Assembly: GCA_937858715.1 (NCBI GenBank)
Contig: CALLZY010000112.1
Span: 36,474-100,473 of the forward strand
Source: an uncultured Chitinophagaceae bacterium
Lineage (GTDB): Bacteria > Bacteroidota > Bacteroidia > Chitinophagales > Chitinophagaceae
Direction: 5' to 3'
Length of the DNA: 64,000 bases
Part shown: piece by piece, positions 1,558 through 47,290 of the stretch
Numbering within the stretch: the stretch's first letter is position 1
Layout: each line of letters starts with the position of its first letter
The notes under the pieces: generated by a model
Database searches by the model: none
What the model was told of the DNA's origin: nothing
What the model saw: the letters and a program-made list of their open reading frames with translations, nothing else
Program-made: the position numbers and the translations under genes

Positions 1558-3501
1558 ATGAAAGCAATTTTTCTTACAGTATTTTTTATACTTAGCTGTA
1601 TCAATATCAATGCTCAAAGTGACAGGCTCATTGATAGTATGCTGCAAATATTAAGAACTGCGAAAGAAGACAGTAACCAGGTGTTTTTGCTGCTTAATCT
1701 TGGTGAGCAGTATGAACGGGTTGCCCCGGAAACATCGAAGCAATATTATCAGCAATCTTTACAATTAAGTAAAAAAATCGGCTACAAACAAGGCGAAATT
1801 AAATTTGCATCTTATTATACTGCTGTGCTTAATATGCAGGGAAAGTTCGACTCGTCGCTCATCTTAAATAAAAACGCATTGGCGCTGGCAAAGCAATTGA
1901 ATGATGAACTGAATATTGCAAAAACCACATTAAATACGGCCAATTCTTTCCATATGCTTGCAAAAGAAGATTCGGCGCTTTATTACTATATGCAGGTATT
2001 ACCCATGCTGGATAAAATAGGGAATAAACGTATGCTGGGCATAGCTTATAGTAATATTCAAAATATTTATACAGACCTGTCGCAATATGAAAAAGCTATT
2101 GCGTATGGGAAAAAGGGACTTGCCATTTTTACGGAAGAGGTAAACGATCCGTTGAATCAGTCTTATTGTTTAAGTAACCTTGGTATTGTTTACCACAGTC
2201 TAAAAAAAATGGATACTGCGGAAATATATTTTAAGCATGCATTGCAAATAAGCCAAAGCATTGGCGACCGGTACACCGAATCTGCAGTATTGCTTAACCT
2301 CGGTGATATACACTACAAGCAGGGCCGGCTTGAATCATCTAAAAAAAACTTTGAAAAATCTTACCAGCTTGCAAACGAAATGGATTTGATGGAAACAAAA
2401 GCTATCGCACTAAAAGGGATGGCTATGTATCATTTAGAAAAAAAGAATTATATAATGGCCCGGCATCTCGCAGATTCTGCCTTAACCATTAGTATAGCCA
2501 ATAATATCCGCAAGCAGTCATTAATGTTATATGGCTTATTGTCGGATATTTCATACGCCAACCAGGATTTAAAATTGGCGCATAAGTTTGAAGAAAAGGA
2601 AGATGCACTGAGAGACAGTGTTAATGCCGGCAACTTACAAGAAATTACGACTGAATTTGAAACAAAATATGAAACCCAGAAAAAAACAGAACAGATAAGA
2701 TTGCAGCAGGCGCAGATTAAACAAAAATCTACACTTAATTATTTTTTAATTGCAGGCACCATAGCGTTGCTTGCTATTTTATTACTTAGCTATCGCAATT
2801 ATAAACATCGCCAAAAACTACAACAGGCAAAAATTGATGAGTTTGAAACAGAAAAATTACTCACCGCCACCGAGGCTGTACTTAAAGGGGAAGAGCAGGA
2901 ACGAAGCCGCCTGGCCAAAGACCTGCACGATGGATTGGGAGGTATGCTTAGTGGCATTAAACATTCATTAAATACTATGAAAGAAAATTTAATAATGACG
3001 CCTGATAACGCCCAGGCTTTTGAACGCAGCGTTGATATGCTCGATTCGTCTATAAAAGAAATGCGTAGGGTGGCGCATAATATGATGCCCGAAATGCTAA
3101 TGAAATATGGGCTTGATACTGCATTGAAAGAATTTTGCAGAGAAATAACCCAAAGCGGCGTTACAAAGGCCAACTACCAATCAATACATTTACAAAATGC
3201 AGTTATTGAACAAACAACATCCGTAACTATTTACCGCATTGCACAAGAGTTGGTAAACAATGCCATAAAGCATGGTAAGGCCAAAGAAGTGTTGGTACAA
3301 TTACATTTTCATGAGCAGGAAAAATTACTGGCACTCACCGTAGAAGATGACGGATCAGGATTTGACATTAACTTGCTGAACGAAGCAAAGGGAATGGGCT
3401 GGAAAAATATTCAAAGCCGGGTAGATTTTTTAAAGGGAAAAACAGATACACAGTCTGCACCCGGCAAAGGCACGTCTGTAATGATTGAAATAAATATTTA
3501 A
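1558..3501 (+). CDS. TPR-containing sensor histidine kinase (HisKA_3/NarX-DesK type)
   Basis: The ATG at 1558 gives a clean signal sequence (MKAIFLTVFFILSCININAQ); an in-frame upstream start at 1513 would add 15 residues ahead of it. Domain order over 647 residues: signal peptide, about seven tetratricopeptide repeats (roughly 30-370; motifs such as YCLSNLGIVYHSLKKMDTAE), one transmembrane helix near 395-415, a short coiled linker, and a HisKA_3 dimerisation domain with the phospho-acceptor His457 in KDLHDGLGGML. A HATPase_c domain follows, with N box QELVNNAIKHG and G boxes DDGSGFD and KGMGWKNI. In this family periplasmic TPRs sense an unknown ligand or partner. The stop codon overlaps the start of the response regulator by one base, so the two form a cognate pair. 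Confidence 0.93.
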   Translation: MKAIFLTVFFILSCININAQSDRLIDSMLQILRTAKEDSNQVFLLLNLGEQYERVAPETSKQYYQQSLQLSKKIGYKQGEIKFASYYTAVLNMQGKFDSSLILNKNALALAKQLNDELNIAKTTLNTANSFHMLAKEDSALYYYMQVLPMLDKIGNKRMLGIAYSNIQNIYTDLSQYEKAIAYGKKGLAIFTEEVNDPLNQSYCLSNLGIVYHSLKKMDTAEIYFKHALQISQSIGDRYTESAVLLNLGDIHYKQGRLESSKKNFEKSYQLANEMDLMETKAIALKGMAMYHLEKKNYIMARHLADSALTISIANNIRKQSLMLYGLLSDISYANQDLKLAHKFEEKEDALRDSVNAGNLQEITTEFETKYETQKKTEQIRLQQAQIKQKSTLNYFLIAGTIALLAILLLSYRNYKHRQKLQQAKIDEFETEKLLTATEAVLKGEEQERSRLAKDLHDGLGGMLSGIKHSLNTMKENLIMTPDNAQAFERSVDMLDSSIKEMRRVAHNMMPEMLMKYGLDTALKEFCREITQSGVTKANYQSIHLQNAVIEQTTSVTIYRIAQELVNNAIKHGKAKEVLVQLHFHEQEKLLALTVEDDGSGFDINLLNEAKGMGWKNIQSRVDFLKGKTDTQSAPGKGTSVMIEINI

Positions 3502-4127
3502 TGGCAACTGGCATATTTATAGTAGATGATCACTACATGGTTATAGAAGGCATTCGTTCTTTATTGCAAAATGAAAAAACGATTGAATGGGTGGGGCATG
3601 CTACCAGTGCTGCATCCTGCCTGAGCTTTTTAAAAAAACAACAGCCAGATATTATTTTAATGGATGTAAATCTTCCTGACAAAAATGGAACGGATCTGTG
3701 TAAAGAGGTAAAAGAGTTATATCCTTCTGTATTGGTGTTGGGACTTAGTACTTTTAACCAACAGGCGGTTATACGCAATATGGTGGATAACGGCGCATCA
3801 GGTTATTTATTGAAAAATGCTTCAAAAGAGGAATTGCTGGATGCGATTGCCACAATATTAAAAGGAAAAAGCTATCTCAGCTTTGAAGCGGCTCTTTCTA
3901 TGAAGAAAACAGCACAGGATGCACCGCTTATAACCAGAAGAGAAAAGGAAGTGCTTTCGCTTATTGCCGAAGGACTGACCAATAACGAAATTGCCGAAAA
4001 GCTGTTTATCAGTATTCCCACTGTAAACACACACCGCAAAAGCCTGCTGGAAAAGTTTGATGCTAAGAATACAGCTTTACTTATAGGCAAAGCCATAAAA
4101 TATGGATATGTGCAACACGAAGGCTGA
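3501..4127 (+). CDS. LuxR/NarL-family response regulator
   Basis: 208 residues. The N-terminal receiver domain shows the acidic pair DD near residue 10, phospho-acceptor Asp55 in LMDVNLPD, the conserved Ser/Thr region LGLSTF and the Lys of LLKNAS. The C-terminal HTH_LUXR domain (about 140-200) has TRREKEVLSLIAEGLTNNEI and PTVNTHRKSLLEKF. The start codon overlaps the stop of the upstream kinase (TAATG), which implies translational coupling and cognate phosphotransfer. The target genes cannot be read from the sequence; no matching operator was recognised nearby. Confidence 0.95.
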   Translation: MATGIFIVDDHYMVIEGIRSLLQNEKTIEWVGHATSAASCLSFLKKQQPDIILMDVNLPDKNGTDLCKEVKELYPSVLVLGLSTFNQQAVIRNMVDNGASGYLLKNASKEELLDAIATILKGKSYLSFEAALSMKKTAQDAPLITRREKEVLSLIAEGLTNNEIAEKLFISIPTVNTHRKSLLEKFDAKNTALLIGKAIKYGYVQHEG

Positions 4128-5509: not shown

Positions 5510-8431
5510 TTATTTTATCAGTGCATCCCAGATTATTTCAATGGGGTGCATTGCTTTTTTACCTGTACCATCTTTAATCTGATGCCGGCAACTGGTTCCC
5601 GGAGCAGCTATAACTGCATCTTCTGAAGCATTTCTGACAGCAGGAAACAATACCATTTCTCCAATCTTCATAGATAAATCGTAATGCTCTTTTTCATAAC
5701 CAAAAGAACCAGCCATGCCACAACAACCTGACGGGATCGTTTCTACAGAATAGTTATCGGGAAATGAAAGCACCTGCACTGTTGCACCTGTGCCAATCAA
5801 TGATTTTTGCTGACAATGTCCGTGCAGTTTGATATGTTTTTTTTCTTTGGTGAAGATATCTTTTGAAACAGCGCCTTTGCTTATCTCACCAGCAATAAAT
5901 TCTTCAATAGTAAATGAACAGGCTGCAAGGTGTTTTGCTTTTTCCACCAGGCTGTCATCTGCCAGGTCAGGATATTCATCTCTGAAGGTGAGGATTGCAG
6001 AAGGTTCGATACCAACTATCGGAGTGTTTGCAGAAACAAGCGGAGCCAGCAGTTCAATATTCTTTTCTGCAATCGTTTTAGCTTTTCTGATCAGCCCCTT
6101 TGATAACCAGGTTCGGCCACTTTCAATATGCTGAGGAATAATAACACCGAATCCAAGCTTTTCTAAAACGTCAATAGACTTTATTCCGGTTGTTACGTCA
6201 TTATAATTGGTGAATTCATCGCAAAACAGGTAAACCGTTTTTGAATTAGGAGTTTCAGTGTTTTGTTTTTTGATTTTCGAATACCAGGAAAGTAAAGTTT
6301 GGCTTGCCATCTTTGGCATGCTCCTTTCCGGATGAAAGCCAACAATCCTGTTAGCCGTTTTCCTGAAAAAAGGAACGCCGTAAAACCAGTTAAACAGAGC
6401 CGGAAATTTTGAAACTAATTTCATCTGCTTTGTGAAATTGGCAATCAGTTTTGAACGGAATGAAACACCATTGGCATCATAATAGTGCTGTAGAAATTCT
6501 GCTTTCAGTTTGGCGACATCCACATTGCTTGGACATTCAGACTTGCAGCCTTTGCAACTGAGGCACAATTCCATTACCCCGTAAATCTCTTTGTGGTCAA
6601 AACGGTTTAACTTTTCAGAGTTTGTTAAAAACTCTCTCAGGATATTTGCCCTGGCCCTGGTAGTGTCTTTTTCGTTTCTGGTGGCCATAAACGATGGGCA
6701 CATTGTTCCCCCGGAAAGATGTGTCTTCCGGCAATCGCCGCTGCCGTTGCATTGTTCGGCGTGTTGCAGTATGTCTTGTTTATAGAACCTGAATATCGTT
6801 TTTAAAGGCGGTGTTTGCTGCCCGGGTTTATAGCGCAGCATGGTGTCCATAGGTGGTGTGTAAACTATTTTACCTGGATTGAAGATGTTTTGCGGGTCCC
6901 ATGTCCTTTTTATCTCTTTCAGCAGTTCGTAGTTTTTGGCGCCAATCATCTGCTTAATAAACTCTCCCCGTAATCTTCCATCGCCATGTTCACCACTAAG
7001 TGACCCGTTGTATTTTTTTACCAGTGTGGCAATTTCTTCTGCTATAATACGGAACAGTTTATGGCCTTCTGCTGTTTTTAAGTTAATTATTGGTCGCAGG
7101 TGCAACTCGCCGGAGCCTGCATGTGCGTAGTGTACGGAGTACAGGTTGTGTTTTTGCAGGATGACATTAAACTCACGGATAAATTCCGGCAGGTCGTTTA
7201 CATCCACAGCAGTGTCTTCAATTACAGCCACGGCTTTCTCATCGCCGGGCATATTGCCCAGTAGCCCTAAACCGGCTTTTCGCAGCGACCATATTTTCTT
7301 TGTATCATCACCAAACAATACAGGAAAGTGGTAGCCAAGCCCGGCAGCCTTCATCCCGGCTTCGATTTTGCTGCAGATTTTCTCAACTTCTTCTTTTGTT
7401 TCCCTGGCTATTTCAACTACGAGGATTGCACCCGGGTTACCCTGAACAAAAAAGCGGTTCTTTGCCTGTTCCTTATTCTCTTTTGTGCATTCTAATATGT
7501 ACTGGTCAATCAGTTCGCAGGCGCTTGGTTTGTGTTTCAGGGCTATCAGGTTTGCCCTTAGCGATTCGTCAATTGTATTGAAGTGAACACAAAGCAGCCC
7601 TACTTCTTTTGGCGGCAGCGGCACTACGTTCAGTTTAATTTCTGTAAGAAAAGCAAGGGTGCCTTCGGAACCGGCAATCAGTTTACAAAAATTAAAATCT
7701 TCACTACCGGCAGTAAATGGTGCAGTCTCCAGCAACTCGTCAACAGCAAACCCTGTGTTTCGCCTTTCAATGGTCCTTTTGGGGAATTCTTTTCTTATCT
7801 CAGCCTGTGTTTCATAGTTGCTGAGCATTTTTCTGACAGAACGGTATATCTCTGCCTCAAGTGTATTGCCCTCGCATTTGTTGTGGAACTCATCAATGTT
7901 CAGTGTTTTAAACTCTGCTTCCGTACCATCGCTCAATATTGCTTTTACGCTTAACAAGTGTTCTCGGACACTTCTGTAAACCACCGAGTTGGAACCGCAT
8001 GAATTATTACCAACCATCCCGCCAATCATGGCACGGTTGGCTGTTGAAGTTTCAGGCCCAAAGAAAAGTCCGTGTGGTTTCAGGAACATATTCAGTTCGT
8101 CACGGATAACGCCTGGCTGCACCCTTACCCAGTTTTCTTCTTTGTTCAGTTCGATGATTTGTGTAAAATGTTTTGAAACATCAACAACAATGCCCGGGCC
8201 AACAACCTGTCCTGCGAGTGAGGTACCCGCCGTTCTTGGTATGACGGATGTTCTTTCATTGCGGGCAAATGAAATCAGTTTTTTAATGTCGTTAAATGAT
8301 CTTGGAATAGAAACGGCGAGTGGCAGCTCACGGTAAGCTGAAGCATCGGTGGCGTATAGTGTCCGTATGGTGTCGTCGAAAAAAAGTTCACCTTCTAATT
8401 CCCGGGCTAATTGTTGAAGTTTTTCATTCAT
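5510..8431 (-). CDS. FAD-binding and Fe-S-binding oxidoreductase (D-lactate/glycolate dehydrogenase type)
   Basis: 973 residues, a single-chain fusion of a GlcD-like flavoprotein and a GlcF-like Fe-S protein. Residues about 20-200 form a PCMH FAD-binding domain (VIPRTAGTSLAGQVVGPGIV; TANRAMIGGMVGNNSCGS). About 230-530 is the FAD-oxidase C-terminal domain (HYAHAGSGELHLRP, SGEHGDGRLRGEF). Next come two 4Fe-4S cysteine clusters (CNGSGDCRK with GTMCPSF, then CLSCKGCKSECPSN), and last a CCG-type cysteine-rich region (HGHCQQKS, GCCGMAGSFGYE). The likely reaction is oxidation of a 2-hydroxy acid with electrons passed to the quinone pool or a cytochrome. The substrate is not fixed by sequence; D-lactate is most common in this family. 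A very good promoter precedes it. Confidence 0.88.
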   Translation of the reverse strand: MNEKLQQLARELEGELFFDDTIRTLYATDASAYRELPLAVSIPRSFNDIKKLISFARNERTSVIPRTAGTSLAGQVVGPGIVVDVSKHFTQIIELNKEENWVRVQPGVIRDELNMFLKPHGLFFGPETSTANRAMIGGMVGNNSCGSNSVVYRSVREHLLSVKAILSDGTEAEFKTLNIDEFHNKCEGNTLEAEIYRSVRKMLSNYETQAEIRKEFPKRTIERRNTGFAVDELLETAPFTAGSEDFNFCKLIAGSEGTLAFLTEIKLNVVPLPPKEVGLLCVHFNTIDESLRANLIALKHKPSACELIDQYILECTKENKEQAKNRFFVQGNPGAILVVEIARETKEEVEKICSKIEAGMKAAGLGYHFPVLFGDDTKKIWSLRKAGLGLLGNMPGDEKAVAVIEDTAVDVNDLPEFIREFNVILQKHNLYSVHYAHAGSGELHLRPIINLKTAEGHKLFRIIAEEIATLVKKYNGSLSGEHGDGRLRGEFIKQMIGAKNYELLKEIKRTWDPQNIFNPGKIVYTPPMDTMLRYKPGQQTPPLKTIFRFYKQDILQHAEQCNGSGDCRKTHLSGGTMCPSFMATRNEKDTTRARANILREFLTNSEKLNRFDHKEIYGVMELCLSCKGCKSECPSNVDVAKLKAEFLQHYYDANGVSFRSKLIANFTKQMKLVSKFPALFNWFYGVPFFRKTANRIVGFHPERSMPKMASQTLLSWYSKIKKQNTETPNSKTVYLFCDEFTNYNDVTTGIKSIDVLEKLGFGVIIPQHIESGRTWLSKGLIRKAKTIAEKNIELLAPLVSANTPIVGIEPSAILTFRDEYPDLADDSLVEKAKHLAACSFTIEEFIAGEISKGAVSKDIFTKEKKHIKLHGHCQQKSLIGTGATVQVLSFPDNYSVETIPSGCCGMAGSFGYEKEHYDLSMKIGEMVLFPAVRNASEDAVIAAPGTSCRHQIKDGTGKKAMHPIEIIWDALIK

Positions 8432-8456
8432 TGCTGTTACGGCTTTTGCACTGTCT

Positions 8457-8488
8457 CAAAAGTACTTTGTTTCTGCCGGGAAGGCAAA
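8457..8488 (-). promoter_or_regulatory. Bacteroidota-type promoter of the FAD/Fe-S dehydrogenase
   Basis: On the minus strand TTTG (8485-8488), exactly 20 bases, then TACTTTTG (8457-8464). This matches the TTTG / TAnnTTTG pattern of the primary sigma factor in this phylum. Transcription would start near 8450, leaving about 20 bases of leader. Confidence 0.7.
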
Positions 8489-8540
8489 GAATGTTTGCGG
8501 TAACAAGTGTTAGTTAAGGAGGATAGAAGTAAACCCTGCA

Positions 8541-9650
8541 TTATTCCTTCTTACTGATATATTCTTCTTTTCTCTTGAGCAGTAATCCAATATTTTTTAG
8601 CAGAAAAATAAAAAGTATCATTAGTGCAAACAAGATTATCAGTGTAACTTCTTGTTTCATGTTCTTAAGCCAGATGGCCACCAAAAGTATCACACCGTGC
8701 ATGGAGCAAATTATTTTTGTGGCAAAGGCATGACTGAAACCCTGGTTGGTAAGCAGGTGATGGATATGCGTCTTATCGGGGGTGAAAGGCGATTTACCTT
8801 TCCACATTCTTACACCAAACACCCGAAGTGTATCAAACACCGGGATCATTACAATACTTAACACAAACACAGGAGAGTAAGGAATAACCGGTTGCCCGGC
8901 TGAAAAATTAAACTGCATAAGCCGGATGCAGAGTACGGCCGTTACAAAACCCAGGACCAGTGAACCCGTATCTCCCATGAATATCCTGGCGGGGTTCAGG
9001 TTGAAATATAAGAAAGCCAGCAAGCCACCGGCAAGCGCAAATGCAATCAACGCAGTATTGGTATCGCCACTTATGTTTAAGAAGATTCCAAGGGTTATTA
9101 GGCTCATGAACCCCAGACCTGCTGCAAGTCCGTCGATACCATCAATAAGATTAAATGCGTTGGTTATACCTACAATGGCAAGTATTGTGACTGTATATTG
9201 GGCCGATAGGGGAAGTGTGGTGAGAGAAAGAAAACCTTCGAAGGAGGTTATCCTTACACCGGAAAGTGCAATAAGACATGCAAGTCCTGCCTGTACTACG
9301 AATTTGTATTTGGCTGAAATATCCTTCATGTCGTCAAAAATTCCCAGTACAAGTAAAGTGATGATAGAAAAGAAGAATGAAACCTGTACGGTATCGTTCA
9401 TAAAAGGGAACCAGAACAACAGGGCAGCCAGCATACCGGCAAATATGGCAATCCCCCCCATTGTTGGTATTGGCGTAGTGTGTTCTTTACGGGCATTAGG
9501 CTTGTCAAACAACCTGTATTTACGAATAATGCTGATTACAGGCGGGATTGAAATTAGTGTTACAATAAAGGCAGTTATAAAGCAAAGCAAAAGAACCCTC
9601 AAACTGCCTGCCGGCATATTTATTTGTACTAAAAAAAAGAAATCGTTCAT
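8541..9650 (-). CDS. Polyprenyl-phosphate HexNAc-1-phosphate transferase (WecA/MraY family)
   Basis: 369 residues from the ATG at 9648-9650 (MNDFFFLVQIN); a further in-frame start 17 codons upstream is less likely. It is a polytopic membrane protein with about ten hydrophobic helices. Diagnostic motifs are the Asp-rich DKPNARKEHTTPIPTMGGIA near residue 50, NAFNLIDGIDGLAAG, the catalytic FMGDTGSLVLGF, and the cytoplasmic loop motif KTHIHHLL characteristic of the WecA/TagO rather than MraY branch. It should transfer a sugar-1-phosphate from a UDP-sugar to undecaprenyl phosphate, starting synthesis of O-antigen, exopolysaccharide or a similar glycan. A divergent glycosyltransferase gene lies 156 bases away. 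Confidence 0.9.
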   Translation of the reverse strand: MNDFFFLVQINMPAGSLRVLLLCFITAFIVTLISIPPVISIIRKYRLFDKPNARKEHTTPIPTMGGIAIFAGMLAALLFWFPFMNDTVQVSFFFSIITLLVLGIFDDMKDISAKYKFVVQAGLACLIALSGVRITSFEGFLSLTTLPLSAQYTVTILAIVGITNAFNLIDGIDGLAAGLGFMSLITLGIFLNISGDTNTALIAFALAGGLLAFLYFNLNPARIFMGDTGSLVLGFVTAVLCIRLMQFNFSAGQPVIPYSPVFVLSIVMIPVFDTLRVFGVRMWKGKSPFTPDKTHIHHLLTNQGFSHAFATKIICSMHGVILLVAIWLKNMKQEVTLIILFALMILFIFLLKNIGLLLKRKEEYISKKE

Positions 9651-41059: not shown

Positions 41060-43405
41060 TTACAGTTCTTTATTCTCAGCAGGTTTAAACCGTTTCCACC
41101 AGCCAGATTTCTTCACAATCTCATCAGTAGGCAATTTACTTTTAATCTGGGCATCCACAACAGCAATCAAAGCCATGTTGATAATACTGCGGACAGAGCT
41201 GCCTAATTGTAAAATGTGCACTGGTTTTTTCAATCCAAGCAAAATTGGGCCTACTGCATCCGCGGTGTCTAATTCTTTCATCAGGTTATAGGCAATATTA
41301 CCAGCGGCGAGATTAGGAAATATCAGGGTGTTCACATCTTTGTCCACCAGTTCGCTGAAAGGATAATTTTCTTTAATCAGCTCCTTATTAAACGCCACGC
41401 TGGCCTGCATTTCACCGTCAACGATCAAACTCGGCATTTTTGTTTTTACAATTGACCTTGCTTCGGCCACAAGCCTTGCTTCCGGAGAGTCACTGCTGCC
41501 AAAATTGGAATAACTAAGCATGGCTATCCGGGGTGTAATGTTGAAGTTTCTAACTTCTTTTGCGGCGAGTAATGTGATTTCAGCGAGGTCTTCAGCAGTT
41601 GGGTTAAAGTTTACTGTTGTGTCAGCAAGGAACAGCGGGCCTTTCTTTGTCAGCATCATATACATGCCGGCAATTTTTTTGATACCATCTTCTGTGCCGA
41701 TGATTTGAATAGCCGGGCGGATAGTATCGGGATAGTTTTTGGTAAGCCCTGAAATCATAGCATCCGCTTCTCCGCATTCCACCATCATGCTGCCAAAGTA
41801 GTTCCTGTCACGCATAATCTTTCTTGCCTCGTATGAGTTGAATCCACGGCGGCCTCTTTTTTGCAAAAAGATATCTGCGTATTCGTTTCTTTTGTCCTCC
41901 TGTTCATCATTTCTTGGGTCAATCACAGGCAGACCTTCAATCTCAATTCCGTTTTCAATAGCAATCCTGTTAATACGCTTTTCATCACCAAGCAAAATGG
42001 GGTAACCAACTCCTTCGTCAAATACAATCTGTGCTGCTTTAAGGATCTTTACATTGTCAGCTTCCGCAAATACAATGCGTTTTGGATTTCTTCTTGCTTT
42101 ATTGCCAATAATCCGCATTACCTGGTTGTCTAAACCAAGGCGTTTATTCAGGTTGTCGGCATATTCATCCCAGTTGGTAATAGGCGATAGTGCATCACCG
42201 GCATCCATTGCTGCTTTGGCTACTGCCGGGGCAACAGTGGCGAGCAATCTTGGGTCAACGGGTTTGGGAATAATGTAGTTGGGGCCAAACATGATGTTCT
42301 TTTCGTCGTAGGCCATATTTACAATATCAGGAACTGTTGTTTTTGCGAGATCAGCCAGTGCTCTTACGGCTGCCAGTTTCATTTCCTCAGTTATCTTCTT
42401 TGCCCTGACATCTAATGCCCCACGGAAGATGTATGGGAAGCCCAGCACATTGTTTACCTGGTTGGGATAATCACTGCGGCCTGTTGCCATGATGATATCC
42501 TTACGGGCACCGGTTGCTTCTTCGTAAGTAATCTCCGGATCTGGATTTGCCATGGCAAATACAATCGGGTTTTTTGCCATGCTCTTAATCATATTTGCGT
42601 TCAGTACGCCGCCTTTGCTGAGTCCGATAAATACATCAGCATTTTTCATTTCTTCTTCCAGTGAATTGTTTTTCCCGCTGCTGGCAAACTCTCTTTTCTG
42701 ATCATCGAGGTCAGTGCGGCTTTCGTGTATCAGCCCTTTGCTGTCAAATACACGGAAGTTTTCCTTTTTTGCACCCAGGGCTATATAAAGCTTAATACAG
42801 GAAATAGCAGCAGCACCTGCGCCGCTTACAATTATTCTTACTTTATCAAGTTTCTTTTTCTGTATCTCACAGGCATTAAGCAGGGCTGCTGCACTGATGA
42901 TAGCAGTTCCATGCTGATCATCATGCATTACAGGGATGTTCATTTCGGCTTTCAGCCTTTTTTCAATATAAAAACATTCGGGTGCTTTTATGTCTTCAAG
43001 ATTGATGCCGCCAAAAGTTGGCTCCAGCGATTTTACAATCTCAACGAACTTCACCGGATCTTTCTCGTTGATTTCAATATCAAACACATCAATGTCGGCA
43101 AATATTTTAAAAAGAACTCCTTTGCCTTCCATTACCGGTTTGCCTGCCTCTGGTCCAATATCACCAAGTCCCAGCACCGCAGTACCATTACTGATTACAG
43201 CTACCAGGTTTCCTTTAGCAGTGTATTTATATACATCGTCTTTGTTGGCAGCAATTTCAAGACAGGGCCATGCCACTCCGGGTGAATAAGCAAGCGAAAG
43301 GTCTCTTTGTGTTTTTGCTTCTTTGGTAGGAATTACCTCTATCTTTCCGGGCTTGCCGTTAGCATGATATTCAAGTGCCTGTTGTTTGCGTAGGTCGTTT
43401 TGCAT
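41060..43405 (-). CDS. maeB: NADP-dependent malic enzyme fused to a phosphotransacetylase-like domain
   Basis: 781 residues, the length of MaeB. The malic enzyme part (about 1-425) shows the catalytic region [15 protein letters not shown], the metal and substrate site [20 protein letters not shown], the nucleotide-binding [16 protein letters not shown] and [11 protein letters not shown]. The C-terminal part (about 430-765) is a PTA-like domain ([40 protein letters not shown]), usually catalytically silent and regulatory (acetyl-CoA sensing). The enzyme decarboxylates malate to pyruvate with NADP. A TAACTTTG promoter and a palindrome precede it. Confidence 0.95.
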
Positions 43406-43456
43406 GAGATAATAAAAATTTAAGCCGTGTAATTATTATCACAGCAGTTTGATTTC

Positions 43457-43476
43457 TGCAGTATTAAAATACTGCA
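43457..43476. promoter_or_regulatory. Palindrome upstream of maeB (possible operator)
   Basis: TGCAGTATT-AA-AATACTGCA, two perfect 9-base arms two bases apart. It begins 8 bases downstream of the maeB -7 box, so it would overlap or directly follow the transcription start. It may be a repressor site or a 5' mRNA stem. Confidence 0.55.
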
Positions 43477-43484
43477 TGTTTCGC

Positions 43485-43492
43485 CAAAGTTA
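43485..43492 (-). promoter_or_regulatory. Likely -7 promoter box of maeB
   Basis: TAACTTTG on the minus strand, about 80 bases before the maeB start. No TTTG at the -33 position is seen. Confidence 0.45.
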
Positions 43493-43519
43493 GGTAAATA
43501 AAACTGGTTCTTCTGGGAG

Positions 43520-43828
43520 CTAATTTGCTTTTTTAAGTCTTGATATTTTTTCTAGTGCAGAGGATAATAAATCATATAGAATGTCTATGTCTTCTTTTTT
43601 TGCTGATAGTTTTACAGTTTCTATTTCACTATTTAACCGATAATATTGAAAAAAATCATGCTCTAATGCCTCACAAATTTTAATGAGAATTCCTGTATCA
43701 ATGGTTTCCCTTTTTGTAATGCTTTGAATATTTTGTCTTGTTGTGTTGATTTTCTTAGCGAGGGCAGAATGACTCACACCTTTGTTTTTCAAAACAATTC
43801 TTATTGTTTTCCCGATGTGTATAGCCAT
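43520..43828 (-). CDS. XRE-family HTH transcriptional regulator
   Basis: 102 residues. The N-terminal HTH_3/Cro-C1 fold covers about 5-65 (LKNKGVSHSALAKKINTTRQ, then NIQSITKRETIDTGILIKIC). A helical C-terminal tail (AKKEDIDILYDLLSSALEKI) probably dimerises. It is divergent from the fulvocin-like gene with 139 bases between them. Those bases hold repeats TTGTTTACAT and a palindrome TTTACATTGTAAA over the promoter of that gene, which makes this protein the obvious candidate repressor of the cassette. It is AT-rich, like the cassette and unlike maeB. No separate promoter is recognised for it. Confidence 0.87.
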   Translation of the reverse strand: MAIHIGKTIRIVLKNKGVSHSALAKKINTTRQNIQSITKRETIDTGILIKICEALEHDFFQYYRLNSEIETVKLSAKKEDIDILYDLLSSALEKISRLKKAN

Positions 43829-43880
43829 ATGGTAAAATTCTTATCCTGTTGAGAGAATCCAGATATTATGAGTATTATAA

Positions 43881-43910
43881 TTGTTTACATTGTAAAAAAT
43901 TTGTTTACAT
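43881..43910. promoter_or_regulatory. Tandem operator-like repeats before the fulvocin-like gene
   Basis: TTGTTTACAT occurs at 43881-43890 and again at 43901-43910, a 20-base period (two helical turns). The first copy overlaps a palindrome TTTACATTGTAAA (43884-43896). The second copy covers the TTTG -33 element, so a bound repressor would block the promoter. Confidence 0.65.
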
Positions 43911-43931
43911 AGATATTAAAACCTATATTTG
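43900..43931 (+). promoter_or_regulatory. Bacteroidota-type promoter of the fulvocin-like cassette
   Basis: TTTG (43900-43903), 20 bases, TATATTTG (43924-43931): a full match to the phylum consensus. Transcription would start near 43936, about 30 bases before the ATG at 43968. Confidence 0.75.
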
Positions 43932-43967
43932 GTAATCACAATATTGTGTTCATCAAAATTCTTAATT

Positions 43968-44582
43968 ATGAAAAAGGCCTTGTTCTTTATTTCCTTATCC
44001 GCTGCTATTCTTAGTTGTTCAAAAAACAATAAGGAATTATCAGATTTAACTCAAGAAGTAGTTGCACAGAAATCTATTGCGTCAATGAAGCAATCATATG
44101 GGTTTTTAAGTGCAGCGGAGAAGTCAAGTCTGTGGCAGACAAAACTAAATGCTGTTCTAGATAATGACAATCAAAAATTAACATATAGGCAGCGAGAAAT
44201 TGTAGCTGAAATAAAAGGGATGCTTGAAAAATATTCAATGGAAGATTTGATTGCGAATAGCCAAATTGGCGAGAATTTCTTAAATCAACATCTCAGCGAG
44301 TATGCACAACATTTTACTACTAAACAGTTGTATTTGCTTATTGAGAACCCTTATTATGTAAAAAACTTTTCTATCTTTAATGCAGATGCATATTTGGCTG
44401 TTTTAAAGTCAGGAGATGAGTATCAGTTAGGAGTGGCTGCACCATCTGTATCTGATTGTTCATGCTATTATAATATTAGTTGCGGACTGATTGGCGGATA
44501 TTGTGATTGGAAGGCAGGGTGTATACAAGTTGCTGAGTGTGGTTTATTTGGAACATCTAATTGTAAGGGTAAGTGTGATTAA
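43968..44582 (+). CDS. Fulvocin C-like bacteriocin precursor lipoprotein
   Basis: 204 residues from the ATG at 43968 (MKKALFFISLSAAILSCSKN), with lipobox ILSC. Residues about 25-160 are a helical, charged leader or propeptide (QREIVAEIKGMLEKYSMEDL). Residues 164-203 hold eight cysteines in the pattern C-S-C ... C ... C ... C ... C ... C ... C, beginning DCSCYYNISCGLIGGYC and ending SNCKGKCD. Fulvocin C of Myxococcus is a 45-residue peptide with eight cysteines in four disulfides, and Bacteroidota carry 'fulvocin C-related' precursors of this size. Assignment rests on the cysteine pattern and architecture. It is followed by a membrane thioredoxin-like gene and a DUF1573 lipoprotein. Bacteriocin activity is inferred. 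Confidence 0.68.
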   Translation: MKKALFFISLSAAILSCSKNNKELSDLTQEVVAQKSIASMKQSYGFLSAAEKSSLWQTKLNAVLDNDNQKLTYRQREIVAEIKGMLEKYSMEDLIANSQIGENFLNQHLSEYAQHFTTKQLYLLIENPYYVKNFSIFNADAYLAVLKSGDEYQLGVAAPSVSDCSCYYNISCGLIGGYCDWKAGCIQVAECGLFGTSNCKGKCD

Positions 44583-44634
44583 ATATATAGTTTAGGTTGT
44601 CTACCTAAGTTGATTTTCAAAAAATTTCGTAATT

Positions 44635-44673
44635 AATTGGACATGCTGTAATATAGCTGTATGTCCAATTTTT
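44635..44673 (+). terminator. Terminator-like hairpin after the fulvocin-like gene
   Basis: AATTGGACAT (44635-44644) pairs with ATGTCCAATT (44661-44670), a 10-bp stem, and the right arm runs into TTTTT (44669-44673). It lies between the peptide gene and its downstream partners and may give partial read-through. Confidence 0.65.
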
Positions 44674-44710
44674 GTTTGACTTGTATTGCATTTTCAGAAA
44701 GAGTATACAA

Positions 44711-45628
44711 ATGAAGAAAAAACAAGAAAGCGTTCTGTTTAGACTGGGTTGGGCAATAATTATTTTTTTGATTTCTTCGATTATTACCGCAGTAACTGCG
44801 AACCTAACTTTTTTGATACATTCGTTTGGTGTTCTACCAAGAACTGCGCTATATTTTTTAAAATCGTTACTATTTTTTACTGCGGTTTTATTGGCGCAGA
44901 AAAAAAACACATCTGGGTATTTATATTGGATGTTCGTTGCTTCAAGTTTTATCATAGATATGACCGTTTTTATTAATGGCTTGAAGCTCATTCCTTTACG
45001 ATTTCCATTTGCTACACTTTTTTCTTTGTTTGGTATTTTTATTGCACATCTGTATGTAAATAAAAGAAAGTGGCTTTTATTGGCGTGTATATCTTTTCTG
45101 TCTTTTACTTTTCTTTCCCACTATTTTTTTGTTCCCGCAATCATCCGTTATATGGAAAAAAAGGAAGGGAAAGGTATAAAGTATTTATCACCGATGCAAA
45201 CCGGTAAGTTATTTACCGTTGACAGCACTTCTATTTATCTTGGTGACACCTTGAAAGGTAAGTGTATTTTAATCGAATACTATTTTGTTGGATGCCCTCC
45301 TTGTGAAAGAAAAATGAGGTACTTAAAAAAAATAAAAAATGATATTAATACAAATGAATTTGAGATAATATTGATTTGCTCGGGAGAAATCACCCCTTTC
45401 AATATTTTTAAGGAAGATGCTTTAAAACACAAAGAGTTCACATTTTCTTTTTTTTATGACAGGTTCAATATTAAAGAATCTTTTATGCCAGGGAAAGAAT
45501 ATCCTCATGAAATTATTGTTGATAAAAAAGGGAAAGTTCATTCATATAAAATAGGGTTTAATAATGAAACAGCTAATTTCTATTTATCAGAAAATTATCA
45601 AACGATTCGGTCAATTTTGGATAATTAA
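44711..45628 (+). CDS. Membrane protein with C-terminal thioredoxin-like domain (CPPC)
   Basis: 305 residues from the ATG at 44711 (MKKKQESVLFRLGWAIIIFL). Five hydrophobic helices cover about 12-140 (TALYFLKSLLFFTAVLLAQ, WLLLACISFLSFTFLSHYFF). A TlpA/AhpC-like thioredoxin domain follows at about 150-305 with the redox motif Cys195-Pro-Pro-Cys198 (IEYYFVGCPPCERKMRYLKK) and the cis-Pro segment KEYPHEIIVDKKGKV. The membrane part is not a recognisable DsbD or VKOR. The domain should face the periplasm. Next to a cysteine-rich peptide it is a likely disulfide-forming or isomerising enzyme for that peptide; immunity is another possibility. It is AT-rich and overlaps the DUF1573 gene by 65 bases. 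Confidence 0.78.
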   Translation: MKKKQESVLFRLGWAIIIFLISSIITAVTANLTFLIHSFGVLPRTALYFLKSLLFFTAVLLAQKKNTSGYLYWMFVASSFIIDMTVFINGLKLIPLRFPFATLFSLFGIFIAHLYVNKRKWLLLACISFLSFTFLSHYFFVPAIIRYMEKKEGKGIKYLSPMQTGKLFTVDSTSIYLGDTLKGKCILIEYYFVGCPPCERKMRYLKKIKNDINTNEFEIILICSGEITPFNIFKEDALKHKEFTFSFFYDRFNIKESFMPGKEYPHEIIVDKKGKVHSYKIGFNNETANFYLSENYQTIRSILDN

Positions 45629-46001
45629 TTTAATAATACCTCTATTTCTTTTTTCTTGTGAAAATCGAAAAAAGAATCATTCTGAATTAGGCTTTAAGAA
45701 ATGCTCAAAGGGTGTTGATACTGTCATTGGCGGGGAGAGTATAAAAAGCGAATACCTTCTTTACAATCTGAGTGATAGAGTCCTTGTAATTAATGACTTT
45801 AGAATAAGCTGCGAATGTTCGCATTCTAATCTATCAAAAAAACAAGAAATAATGGCTAGAGATTCTTTTCGGCTTACAGTAACTATTGATACAGATACCT
45901 CAGAAATCGGCAAAGGAAAAATCCTTTATCTGTCTTTACTGTGTAACACAAAAAAAGAAATTAATACACTTTCATTTCCAATATATATAAAAGGAAAGTA
46001 A
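45564..46001 (+). CDS. DUF1573 domain-containing lipoprotein
   Basis: 145 residues. The only plausible ATG (45564) lies inside the upstream gene, giving a 65-base overlap. The N-terminus MKQLISIYQKIIKRFGQFWI continues to a hydrophobic stretch ending LFLFSC, a lipobox after an unusually long basic region. The mature part is one immunoglobulin-like DUF1573 domain (ESIKSEYLLYNLSDRVLVIN, ISCECSHSNL with CxC, ILYLSLLCNT). DUF1573 proteins often accompany secreted cysteine peptides and TlpA-like genes in Bacteroidota, role unknown. Convergent with the amidohydrolase gene 92 bases on. Confidence 0.75.
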   Translation: MKQLISIYQKIIKRFGQFWIINLIIPLFLFSCENRKKNHSELGFKKCSKGVDTVIGGESIKSEYLLYNLSDRVLVINDFRISCECSHSNLSKKQEIMARDSFRLTVTIDTDTSEIGKGKILYLSLLCNTKKEINTLSFPIYIKGK

Positions 46002-46093
46002 AGTACTATTTAAAAAATCGAAAGTCCTGATTTACTTGGATATTGCGTTTTTTGTTATCATGCGTATTATATCGGGCAAGTCAAAATTCTATT

Positions 46094-47290
46094 CTAAATT
46101 TTCAAGATATTAAATATTGCCAAATTGCTTCCGAACCATGCCATTATTCCCATTCCTGTTTCAATTGCGTCTTCGTCAACATTGAAAGTGGGGGTGTGAA
46201 CACCGGATGTAATCCCTTTACTTTTGTTCATAGTGCCCAACCTGAAAAAGCAAGCTGGAATTTCCTGAGCATAATAGCCAAAATCTTCTGCTCCCATCCG
46301 TAATTCTGTTTCGCTTACATATTCTGTACCCAGGTAAGTTTCTGCAGCTTTCATGGCAGCATCATTCACTTTTTCGTTGTTATATACACAAGGATAGCCA
46401 ACATCAATATGCAGATCAACTTCACCTCCCATTGAGTGAACAATGTTTTCAGATATGTTTCTGATTAACTCATGCGCCTCAAACCGCCATTGCTCATCCA
46501 TTGCCCGGAAAGTTCCCATAAGCTTTACTTCGCCGGGGATAACATTTGTTGTATTTCCTCCGTTAAATGATGTAATCGACAACACAGACGGGTTAAAAGG
46601 ATTATTGTTACGGCTGACGACTTGTTGTAATGCAATAACTAATTGTGAACTGATTAGTATCGGATCGACTGCAAGATGTGGCGAAGCTGCATGGCCTCCT
46701 TTTCCTTTTATGGTAAAATATAATTCATCAGCACTGGCCATTACCTTTCCGCTGCGGAAACTGAGTTTACCAGTATCCATCATGGTGTGTACATGAAGGG
46801 CTAGTATGGCCTGTGGTGCAGGATTTTCCAGCACTCCATCCTTTATCATTAATGAAGCGCCGCCAGGATTCTTTTCTTCACCGGGCTGAAAAATCAGCTT
46901 TACAGTGCCTTCCCATTCGTCTTTTAATTCGCTCAGAATTTTTGCGGCACCAAGCAAACAGGTAGTATGCACATCATGTCCGCAGGCATGCATTACACCA
47001 TCTACTTTTGATTTATAGGGAACATCATTTTCTTCTTTGATTGGCAAGGCATCCATATCTGCCCGCAGGGCAATAATCCTGTTGTCAGGGTTTTTACCCT
47101 TAATCAACCCCACTACACCAGTTGTAGCTTTTATTTCAAAAGGAATTCCAAACTCAGTTAGTTTTTGCTGAACAAATTTCGAGGTTTCGAATTCCTGGTA
47201 GCTCAACTCCGGATTGGCATGTATATGCCGCCTGATTTCAATAAACTCAGGGGTATATTTTTTTGCCAGTTCTTTTATTTTCAATTGCAT
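46094..47290 (-). CDS. M20-family amidohydrolase (N-acyl amino acid / IAA-amidohydrolase type)
   Basis: 398 residues from the ATG at 47288-47290 (MQLKIKELAKKYTPEFIEIR). Metal-binding and catalytic features of the M20D family are in order: RRHIHANPELSYQE, LRADMDALPIKEE, MHACGHDVHTTCLLGAAKIL, FQPGEEKNPGGASLMI, and late RMGAEDFGYYAQEIPACFFR. A lid domain lies at about 185-300 (FTIKGKGGHAASPHLAVDPI). No signal peptide, so it is cytoplasmic. It should hydrolyse N-acyl or N-acetyl amino acids; the exact substrate cannot be read. A TATTTTTG box lies only 5 bases before the ATG, so the transcript may be leaderless, and a longer start at 47329 is excluded. Confidence 0.93.
   Translation of the reverse strand: MQLKIKELAKKYTPEFIEIRRHIHANPELSYQEFETSKFVQQKLTEFGIPFEIKATTGVVGLIKGKNPDNRIIALRADMDALPIKEENDVPYKSKVDGVMHACGHDVHTTCLLGAAKILSELKDEWEGTVKLIFQPGEEKNPGGASLMIKDGVLENPAPQAILALHVHTMMDTGKLSFRSGKVMASADELYFTIKGKGGHAASPHLAVDPILISSQLVIALQQVVSRNNNPFNPSVLSITSFNGGNTTNVIPGEVKLMGTFRAMDEQWRFEAHELIRNISENIVHSMGGEVDLHIDVGYPCVYNNEKVNDAAMKAAETYLGTEYVSETELRMGAEDFGYYAQEIPACFFRLGTMNKSKGITSGVHTPTFNVDEDAIETGMGIMAWFGSNLAIFNILKI

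Follow-up and report, generated by a model that had tools for sequence, protein, structure and literature searches.

To our knowledge, fulvocin C of Myxococcus fulvus (1981) has so far been an isolated peptide without a gene setting. Here we examine a locus for a fulvocin C-related precursor in a 64,000-nucleotide stretch of DNA, referred to below as the window, from an uncultured Chitinophagaceae bacterium (contig CALLZY010000112.1), where the precursor gene is followed by a gene for a membrane protein fused to a thioredoxin domain. An eight-cysteine tip is common to fulvocin C and this precursor, which falls in the NCBIfam family NF033852, but what is known of fulvocin C is a free peptide, and its last cysteine sits differently from that of the tip described here. 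A comparable pairing of a membrane protein with a thioredoxin, MauE and MauD, matures the disulfide-rich methylamine dehydrogenase; the likeness lies in the pairing itself, whereas the membrane domain here has neither a match to the MauE family PF07291 nor a conserved cysteine. Pediocin PA-1, which unlike our cassette relies on an ATP-binding cassette (ABC) exporter and a short leader, resembles the combination of precursor and fusion in being a bacteriocin with a dedicated thioredoxin-like accessory. This accessory, PedC, is a dedicated thiol-disulfide oxidoreductase that raises the potency of pediocin PA-1 (PMC4919988), but the window fusion lies outside the PedC model TIGR01295. The halocin C8 precursor ProC8 is exported by the twin-arginine translocation (Tat) pathway and yields an N-terminal immunity part and a C-terminal halocin (PMC11509114). 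It thus carries an N-terminal domain and a C-terminal peptide in one chain, as the precursor here does, but it is archaeal and its N-terminal immunity is proven, whereas for the carrier described below an immunity role is guesswork; library scans of precursor-family proteins listed no halocin family. The BSAP toxins of Bacteroidales are lipoproteins too, antibacterial and equipped with a signal for export to the surface (PMC12853789), but they carry a MACPF domain, to which the Pfam scan of the precursor gave no match. Pediocin with PedC and halocin C8 are the nearest working precedents.

Work on fulvocin C dates from 1977 and 1981, as cited in PMC8708641, and the name appears in the keyword list of PMC12333140. 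The bacteriocin name is already attached to the public model NF033852. We found no description of the thioredoxin pairing or of the carrier arrangement in the literature searched, which left most subscription papers outside. Searches on NVEALA, and on MauE with thioredoxin and DUF1573, found nothing relevant to the cassette.

The two genes at the centre of the locus have the following features, in window coordinates (pLDDT, predicted local distance difference test).

43968..44582, plus strand: precursor, a fulvocin C-related lipoprotein of 204 residues with an ATG start (NF033852, 66.4 bits, cut-off 35)
44007..44018, plus strand: lipobox ILSC, residues 14-17 (C17), read in the sequence
44043..44411, plus strand: helical carrier domain, residues 26-148 (AlphaFold, high confidence)
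44415..44453, plus strand: predicted flexible linker, residues 150-162 (pLDDT below 50 at 153-157)
44454..44579, plus strand: eight-cysteine tip, residues 163-204, the equivalent of mature fulvocin C (cysteine columns; fulvocin C profile match)
44711..45628, plus strand: membrane protein fused to a thioredoxin domain, 305 residues (PF08534 Redoxin, 40.4 bits, cut-off 26.6; structure model)
44711..45163, plus strand: membrane domain of the fusion, residues 1-151 (helices in the model; no conserved cysteine)
45188..45625, plus strand: ResA/TlpA-like thioredoxin domain of the fusion, residues 160-305, with CPPC at residues 195-198 (45293-45304; Foldseek best E 8.2e-9)

The precursor matches NF033852, "bacteriocin fulvocin C-related", over positions 3-149 of 150, with a score well above the membership cut-off. 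Its eight cysteines fall between residues 164 and 203 and are held by the last 41 residues; across 39 aligned sequences, seven of the corresponding columns are invariant and conservation of the eighth is 90% or higher. The first-pass annotation had described this region as an eight-cysteine tail like that of fulvocin C, and the family score and the cysteine columns bear this out. The letters that we take to be mature fulvocin C match the family model at positions 108-148 of 150 (E 1.1e-6, 29.5 bits) and are 44% identical to the tip of locus L037, with the last cysteine placed differently. If these presumed letters are right, the single characterised product of the family would be the tip without the carrier. 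An AlphaFold model of the precursor built from 39 aligned rows (mean pLDDT 84; 73.5-76.5 in the other four models) contains the confidently predicted helical domain, a weakly predicted linker and the cysteine-rich tip. For the carrier, Foldseek gave no match in the PDB with E <= 0.001, and a sequence profile searched against the PDB reached E 0.078 at best, leaving no candidate for a known fold.

A lipobox is present in 32 of the 39 aligned precursors, and these 32 include 25 with K or R at +3 and 27 with an acidic residue at +3 to +7. The strict form of the surface signal of lipoproteins, C-X-K-(D/E)2 (PMC5080379), is fitted by L037 only. The start of the precursor resembles a signal peptide but lacks a lipobox at L092, L094 and L095, and it is not recognisable at L048, L049, L059 and L088; Streptomyces members have a Tat-like stretch in place of the lipobox. 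A lipobox, the mark of the lipoprotein anchoring initially proposed for the precursor, is therefore common in the family and not universal.

The redox partner recurs with the precursor elsewhere. Because the survey loci were located through the precursor family or its tip, their neighbours constitute independent evidence. The survey comprised 49 precursors at 48 loci, and for 47 of these precursors 900 bp or more of downstream DNA were available. We dropped L098, whose contig is apparently that of L034, and L063, which lacks an open precursor, and counted L060 and L096 once each. A same-strand thioredoxin-family protein of at least 200 residues starts directly behind 34 of the 47 precursors, compared with 8 of 578 when the same test was applied to other genes of the survey loci (at least 600 bp downstream). 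By a crude count, 25 of these 34 proteins have 4-5 hydrophobic segments ahead of the thioredoxin domain, the rest having 2-8. Across 27 loci, the thioredoxin domain co-diverges with the carrier (r 0.45, permutation p 0.0002) and to a lesser degree with the tip (r 0.16, p 0.016), a value lowered by noise in so short a segment. A reverse search with a profile of the membrane domain gave 6 matches in 328 genomes, three of them beside precursors; of the other three, one is a thioredoxin fusion next to a DUF1573 lipoprotein where the contig ends, and two are weak matches to proteins without CxxC. With no more than 12 candidates scored per genome and many divergent members missed, this search is informative on specificity and not on coverage. 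The concern raised at first pass that these genes might fail to co-occur elsewhere is thus answered for the pair. The self-sufficient four-gene layout proposed at the same time fares less well: its redox partner is conserved, but DUF1573 stands behind 10 of 47 precursors, and a divergent XRE gene accompanies 3 of 49 precursors by the survey profile and 5 of 29 separately mapped relatives. At the level of sequence, the constant core is two genes, precursor and thioredoxin fusion, and DUF1573 is optional.

The fusion had been described as a five-helix membrane protein with a CPPC thioredoxin domain. Its AlphaFold model (pLDDT 90) agrees, placing five long helices and one short helix before the thioredoxin domain, whereas a crude hydropathy count finds three hydrophobic segments. 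The model matches structures of a putative thioredoxin, ResA, TlpA and StoA. The CxxC cysteines (C195, C198) and the cis-proline (P265) are invariant in 31 of 31 fusion rows, and the two residues between the cysteines vary. No Pfam family scored above its cut-off for the membrane part among the fusions scanned. A MauE-, VKOR- or DsbB-type membrane oxidase was considered and set aside, with no MauE match in the fusions scanned and no conserved redox cysteine; membership in PedC/BrcD (TIGR01295, cut-off 120) was likewise rejected, the window fusion having no listed match and the L034 fusion scoring 17.8 bits. At L044 (8499-10260), two tandem fusions behind one precursor are 89.6% identical in nucleotides from the CxxC onwards and 56.3% identical before it, the change falling abruptly at the active site.

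The host genome of 4.42 Mb in 282 contigs contains a single copy of the precursor gene. In the window, the two genes that flank the locus are both on the minus strand: a malic enzyme gene, whose start codon is at 43405, and an amidohydrolase gene, whose stop is at 46094. They are separated by 2688 bp. The guanine-plus-cytosine (GC) content of the stretch between them is 30.9% against a window mean of 42.0%, and the 2.5 kb from 43501 have the lowest GC among the stretches sampled over the 64 kb. Using the amidohydrolase as a query on 41 genomes of the genus, we fetched 30 loci, one of which is our own and 29 of which belong to relatives. Among these 29, a gap of 60-175 bp separates the flanking genes in 20 and one of 298-1422 bp in 7; the second gene was not seen in 2. 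Some relatives have other small genes at the site (43405-46094 in the window), by eye methyltransferase-like, PAS-like and ATPase-like. Because the flanks are close together in most relatives and other small genes occur there in some, the cassette is, judged by this comparison, an AT-rich insertion at a mildly variable site; it looks foreign and was probably acquired.

Precursor matches are scattered, occurring in 3 of 42 genomes of the genus, 19 of 394 of the family, 19 of 396 of the order, 9 of 395 of the class and 4 of 395 of the phylum, in samples that overlap and include our own genome. A Bacteroides finegoldii plasmid encodes a DUF1573 protein, a precursor and a TlpA-type protein in a row. 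A plasmid search with the window precursor gave no match, and other members used as queries did match. Phage cargo was considered and rejected: the Bacteroides plasmid precursor had no phage match at E <= 0.01, and none of 56 pattern matches was confirmed when viral contigs were scanned with the tip alignment.

Plasmids of Streptomyces add a different arrangement. Five of seven fetched loci (L141-L144, L148) encode an N-terminal CxxC ... W(V/A)PT domain, a Tat-like stretch, the carrier and a cysteine-rich tip in one frame; L147 aligns across the N-terminal CxxC region too, and L149 lacks the N-terminal CxxC domain. The N-terminal domain has no Pfam match but reads like a thioredoxin, and the stretch behind it reads like a Tat signal whose matches stay below library cut-offs; both labels are by reading. 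Two tandem pairs carry similar carriers with differing tips, in the manner of polymorphic toxins. In Streptomyces sp. NBC_00012, two plasmid-borne copies in tandem have a nucleotide identity of 99.8% over 271 codons and of 50.3% over the last 53 codons, which encode the tip; in the Bacteroidota tandem pair at L095 the carrier is 92.1% and the tip 66.0% identical. This excess in the two pairs compared does not extend to the family.

Taken together, these observations are consistent with a carrier-borne disulfide bacteriocin that is matured by a cognate membrane thioredoxin and encoded by an acquired cassette, a reading whose chances we judge to be about even. The precursor would leave the cytoplasm through Sec and become a membrane-anchored lipoprotein, perhaps one displayed at the cell surface. 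The periplasm-facing ResA/TlpA-type domain would then oxidise or isomerise the four disulfides of the tip, probably by docking on the carrier, and a host protease would cut the linker to release a free tip that harms related bacteria at the membrane. The first candidate for self-protection would be the variable membrane domain of the fusion; the second would be the carrier, as in halocin C8. The first-pass annotation had likewise envisaged folding by the CPPC protein and release; the family identity, the conserved redox neighbour and the CxxC domain fused in Streptomyces lend that account partial support, and the core has shrunk from four genes to two. Plasmid carriage, AT-rich insertion and scattered distribution are further supporting signs.

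Several observations weigh against this reading. Thirteen of the 47 precursors have no thioredoxin partner (L039, L043, L049, L051, L054, L056, L059, L082, L083, L090, L094, the upstream copy of the L095 tandem, and L096). The window cassette contains neither an ABC exporter nor a protease, as had already been remarked at first pass, and no conserved cleavage motif precedes the first cysteine of the tip. ResA/TlpA domains are mostly reducing, and the membrane part offers no conserved cysteine pair that could re-oxidise this one: across 31 rows there is no conserved cysteine column before the CxxC, with at least two cysteines there in 19. Over 741 homologue pairs the tip shows no greater variability than the carrier (identity, cysteines excluded, 0.20 for the tip and 0.17 for the carrier), and faster evolution of the tip was not seen family-wide. 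The score of the presumed fulvocin C letters is below the family cut-off of 35 because only the tip is present in them. A scan of genome contigs for the fulvocin C gene gave three Bacteroidota loci only and did not find the Myxococcus gene. Finally, we know of no activity for any Bacteroidota member.

Fulvocin C was, as we take it, isolated as the tip alone, which argues against the idea that the tip is never freed and that the protein is instead a lipoprotein toxin, displayed on the surface and dependent on contact, whose helical domain serves as a stalk. The strict surface signal at L037 only and the missing lipobox at L092, L094 and L095 point the same way, and we consider such display unlikely. 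It would nevertheless suit the cassette without a protease, the prevalence of the lipobox with residues behind it that come near C-X-K-(D/E)2 (PMC5080379), and the precedent of the known Bacteroidales BSAPs as surface lipoproteins (PMC12853789). That the protein is no weapon, but a disulfide-rich envelope protein (binding, adhesion or structural) with its own redox enzyme and a bacteriocin name given by resemblance, would agree with the absence of shown activity in the phylum and of a proven immunity gene, with the members that stand alone, and with a family-wide tip variability no higher than that of the carrier. Similarity to a purified bacteriocin, if its presumed letters hold, together with tip exchange in two tandem pairs, plasmid carriage, insertion and scattered distribution make this, too, an improbable account.

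Another account would make the thioredoxin fusion mainly an immunity device rather than a maturation enzyme, one that protects the producer by reducing or trapping the tip or whose membrane domain blocks the target. Its fold resembles that of ResA and TlpA, mostly reducing enzymes, and the two L044 fusions, alike from the CxxC on and unlike before it, are as expected if the membrane part fits different tips. On the other hand, the Streptomyces CxxC domain lies within the precursor chain, a better fit to maturation, and co-divergence of the thioredoxin domain is stronger with the carrier (r 0.45) than with the tip (r 0.16). We regard a function mainly in immunity as very unlikely.

If maturation by a cognate thioredoxin is correct, fulvocin C gains a gene setting that includes a carrier, a cognate thiol-disulfide enzyme and a fusion linking both, along with indications that tips are exchanged. 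The family, so far named by resemblance, would acquire a testable pathway of export, folding and release, and other disulfide-rich bacteriocins might be found through their redox partners. More tentatively, the loci could represent a weapon system that spans phyla, with a fixed carrier, exchangeable disulfide-knotted tips, a cognate CxxC domain for each, and a variable membrane domain giving tip-specific immunity; we find this somewhat doubtful. In such a system the CxxC domain might, with the same reserve, be placed in the adjoining membrane protein in Bacteroidota and at the precursor N-terminus before the Tat-like signal in Streptomyces. If true, this would be a disulfide counterpart of polymorphic toxins. 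Streptomyces-type N-terminal units also precede other cysteine-rich tails in two further species. The match in Rubrobacter radiotolerans reaches 43% over residues 2-125 (E 3e-21); that in Thermomicrobium roseum, where CxxC is kept and WEPV replaces WVPT, reaches 43% over residues 2-107 (E 3e-7). An S8 serine peptidase gene is annotated near both of these plasmid proteins (L145, 2989-4152, and L146, 3013-4032, respectively).

The remaining features of the locus are the following.

43520..43828, minus strand: XRE-type (Cro/C1 helix-turn-helix) regulator of 102 residues, divergent from the precursor (PF13443 HTH_26, 31.7 bits, cut-off 22)
43872..43910, plus strand: direct repeat found in the sequence, two 19-nucleotide copies, 79% identical, spacing 20; a possible operator
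43900..43931, plus strand: Bacteroidota-type promoter-like site TTTG-N20-TATATTTG (pattern match)
45564..46001, plus strand: DUF1573 lipoprotein of 145 residues with SCEC, the optional third gene (PF07610, 28.7 bits, cut-off 26.1)

With these, the regulator, precursor, fusion and DUF1573 lipoprotein were all located on re-reading at the positions first given for them. All ten DUF1573 matches of the survey profile adjoin precursors, and L083 has a DUF1573-like protein too, by eye. The CxC pair pointed out in the DUF1573 lipoprotein is present as SCEC, but it is not special, with similar CxC stretches in other DUF1573 proteins read. Because most loci lack DUF1573, it is a poor candidate for the immunity protein it had been suggested to be.

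The XRE protein may control expression of the cassette. The repeat and the promoter-like site adjoin each other upstream of the precursor, in keeping with the promoter control initially proposed, but the pattern, which follows what we take to be the Bacteroidota promoter consensus, has 7 occurrences in the window where 4.4 would be expected, a count reached by 18 of 100 shuffles, and such control is only suggested. The 10-mer TTGTTTACAT of the direct repeat (43881 and 43901) has five plus-strand copies in the window and none on the minus strand. No Rfam element was found in 43400-46100. A defence system was considered and set aside: PADLOC gave three weak matches for the XRE protein and none for the other three proteins.

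Some survey loci without a thioredoxin partner have other neighbours. Small membrane proteins without a thioredoxin domain stand directly behind the precursor at L056 (8676-9104) and L049 (7613-7936). Compared with the membrane domain of the fusions, stand-alone membrane partners gave weak matches at L053 (E 0.0027, cut by a contig end) and L049 (E 0.06), and the L056 protein was not among the matches listed, so that they are at most candidate relatives of this domain. At L096 (6889-8920), the precursor appears as two overlapping pieces, followed by ABC transporter ATPase-like and six-helix permease-like genes. Interrupted copies are also seen at L060, in two pieces, at L063, without an open precursor, and at L083, as a short piece near masked bases.

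Elsewhere in the host genome, on contig C6, locus L109 encodes an 82-residue peptide with a GG-type leader and several cysteines (3499-3747; TIGR04149, 20.2 bits, below the cut-off of 25). Near it are a 534-residue protein that by eye resembles a VKOR plus thioredoxin fusion (7156-8760) and a TlpA-type protein, and this is possibly a second, different disulfide-peptide locus of the same genome.

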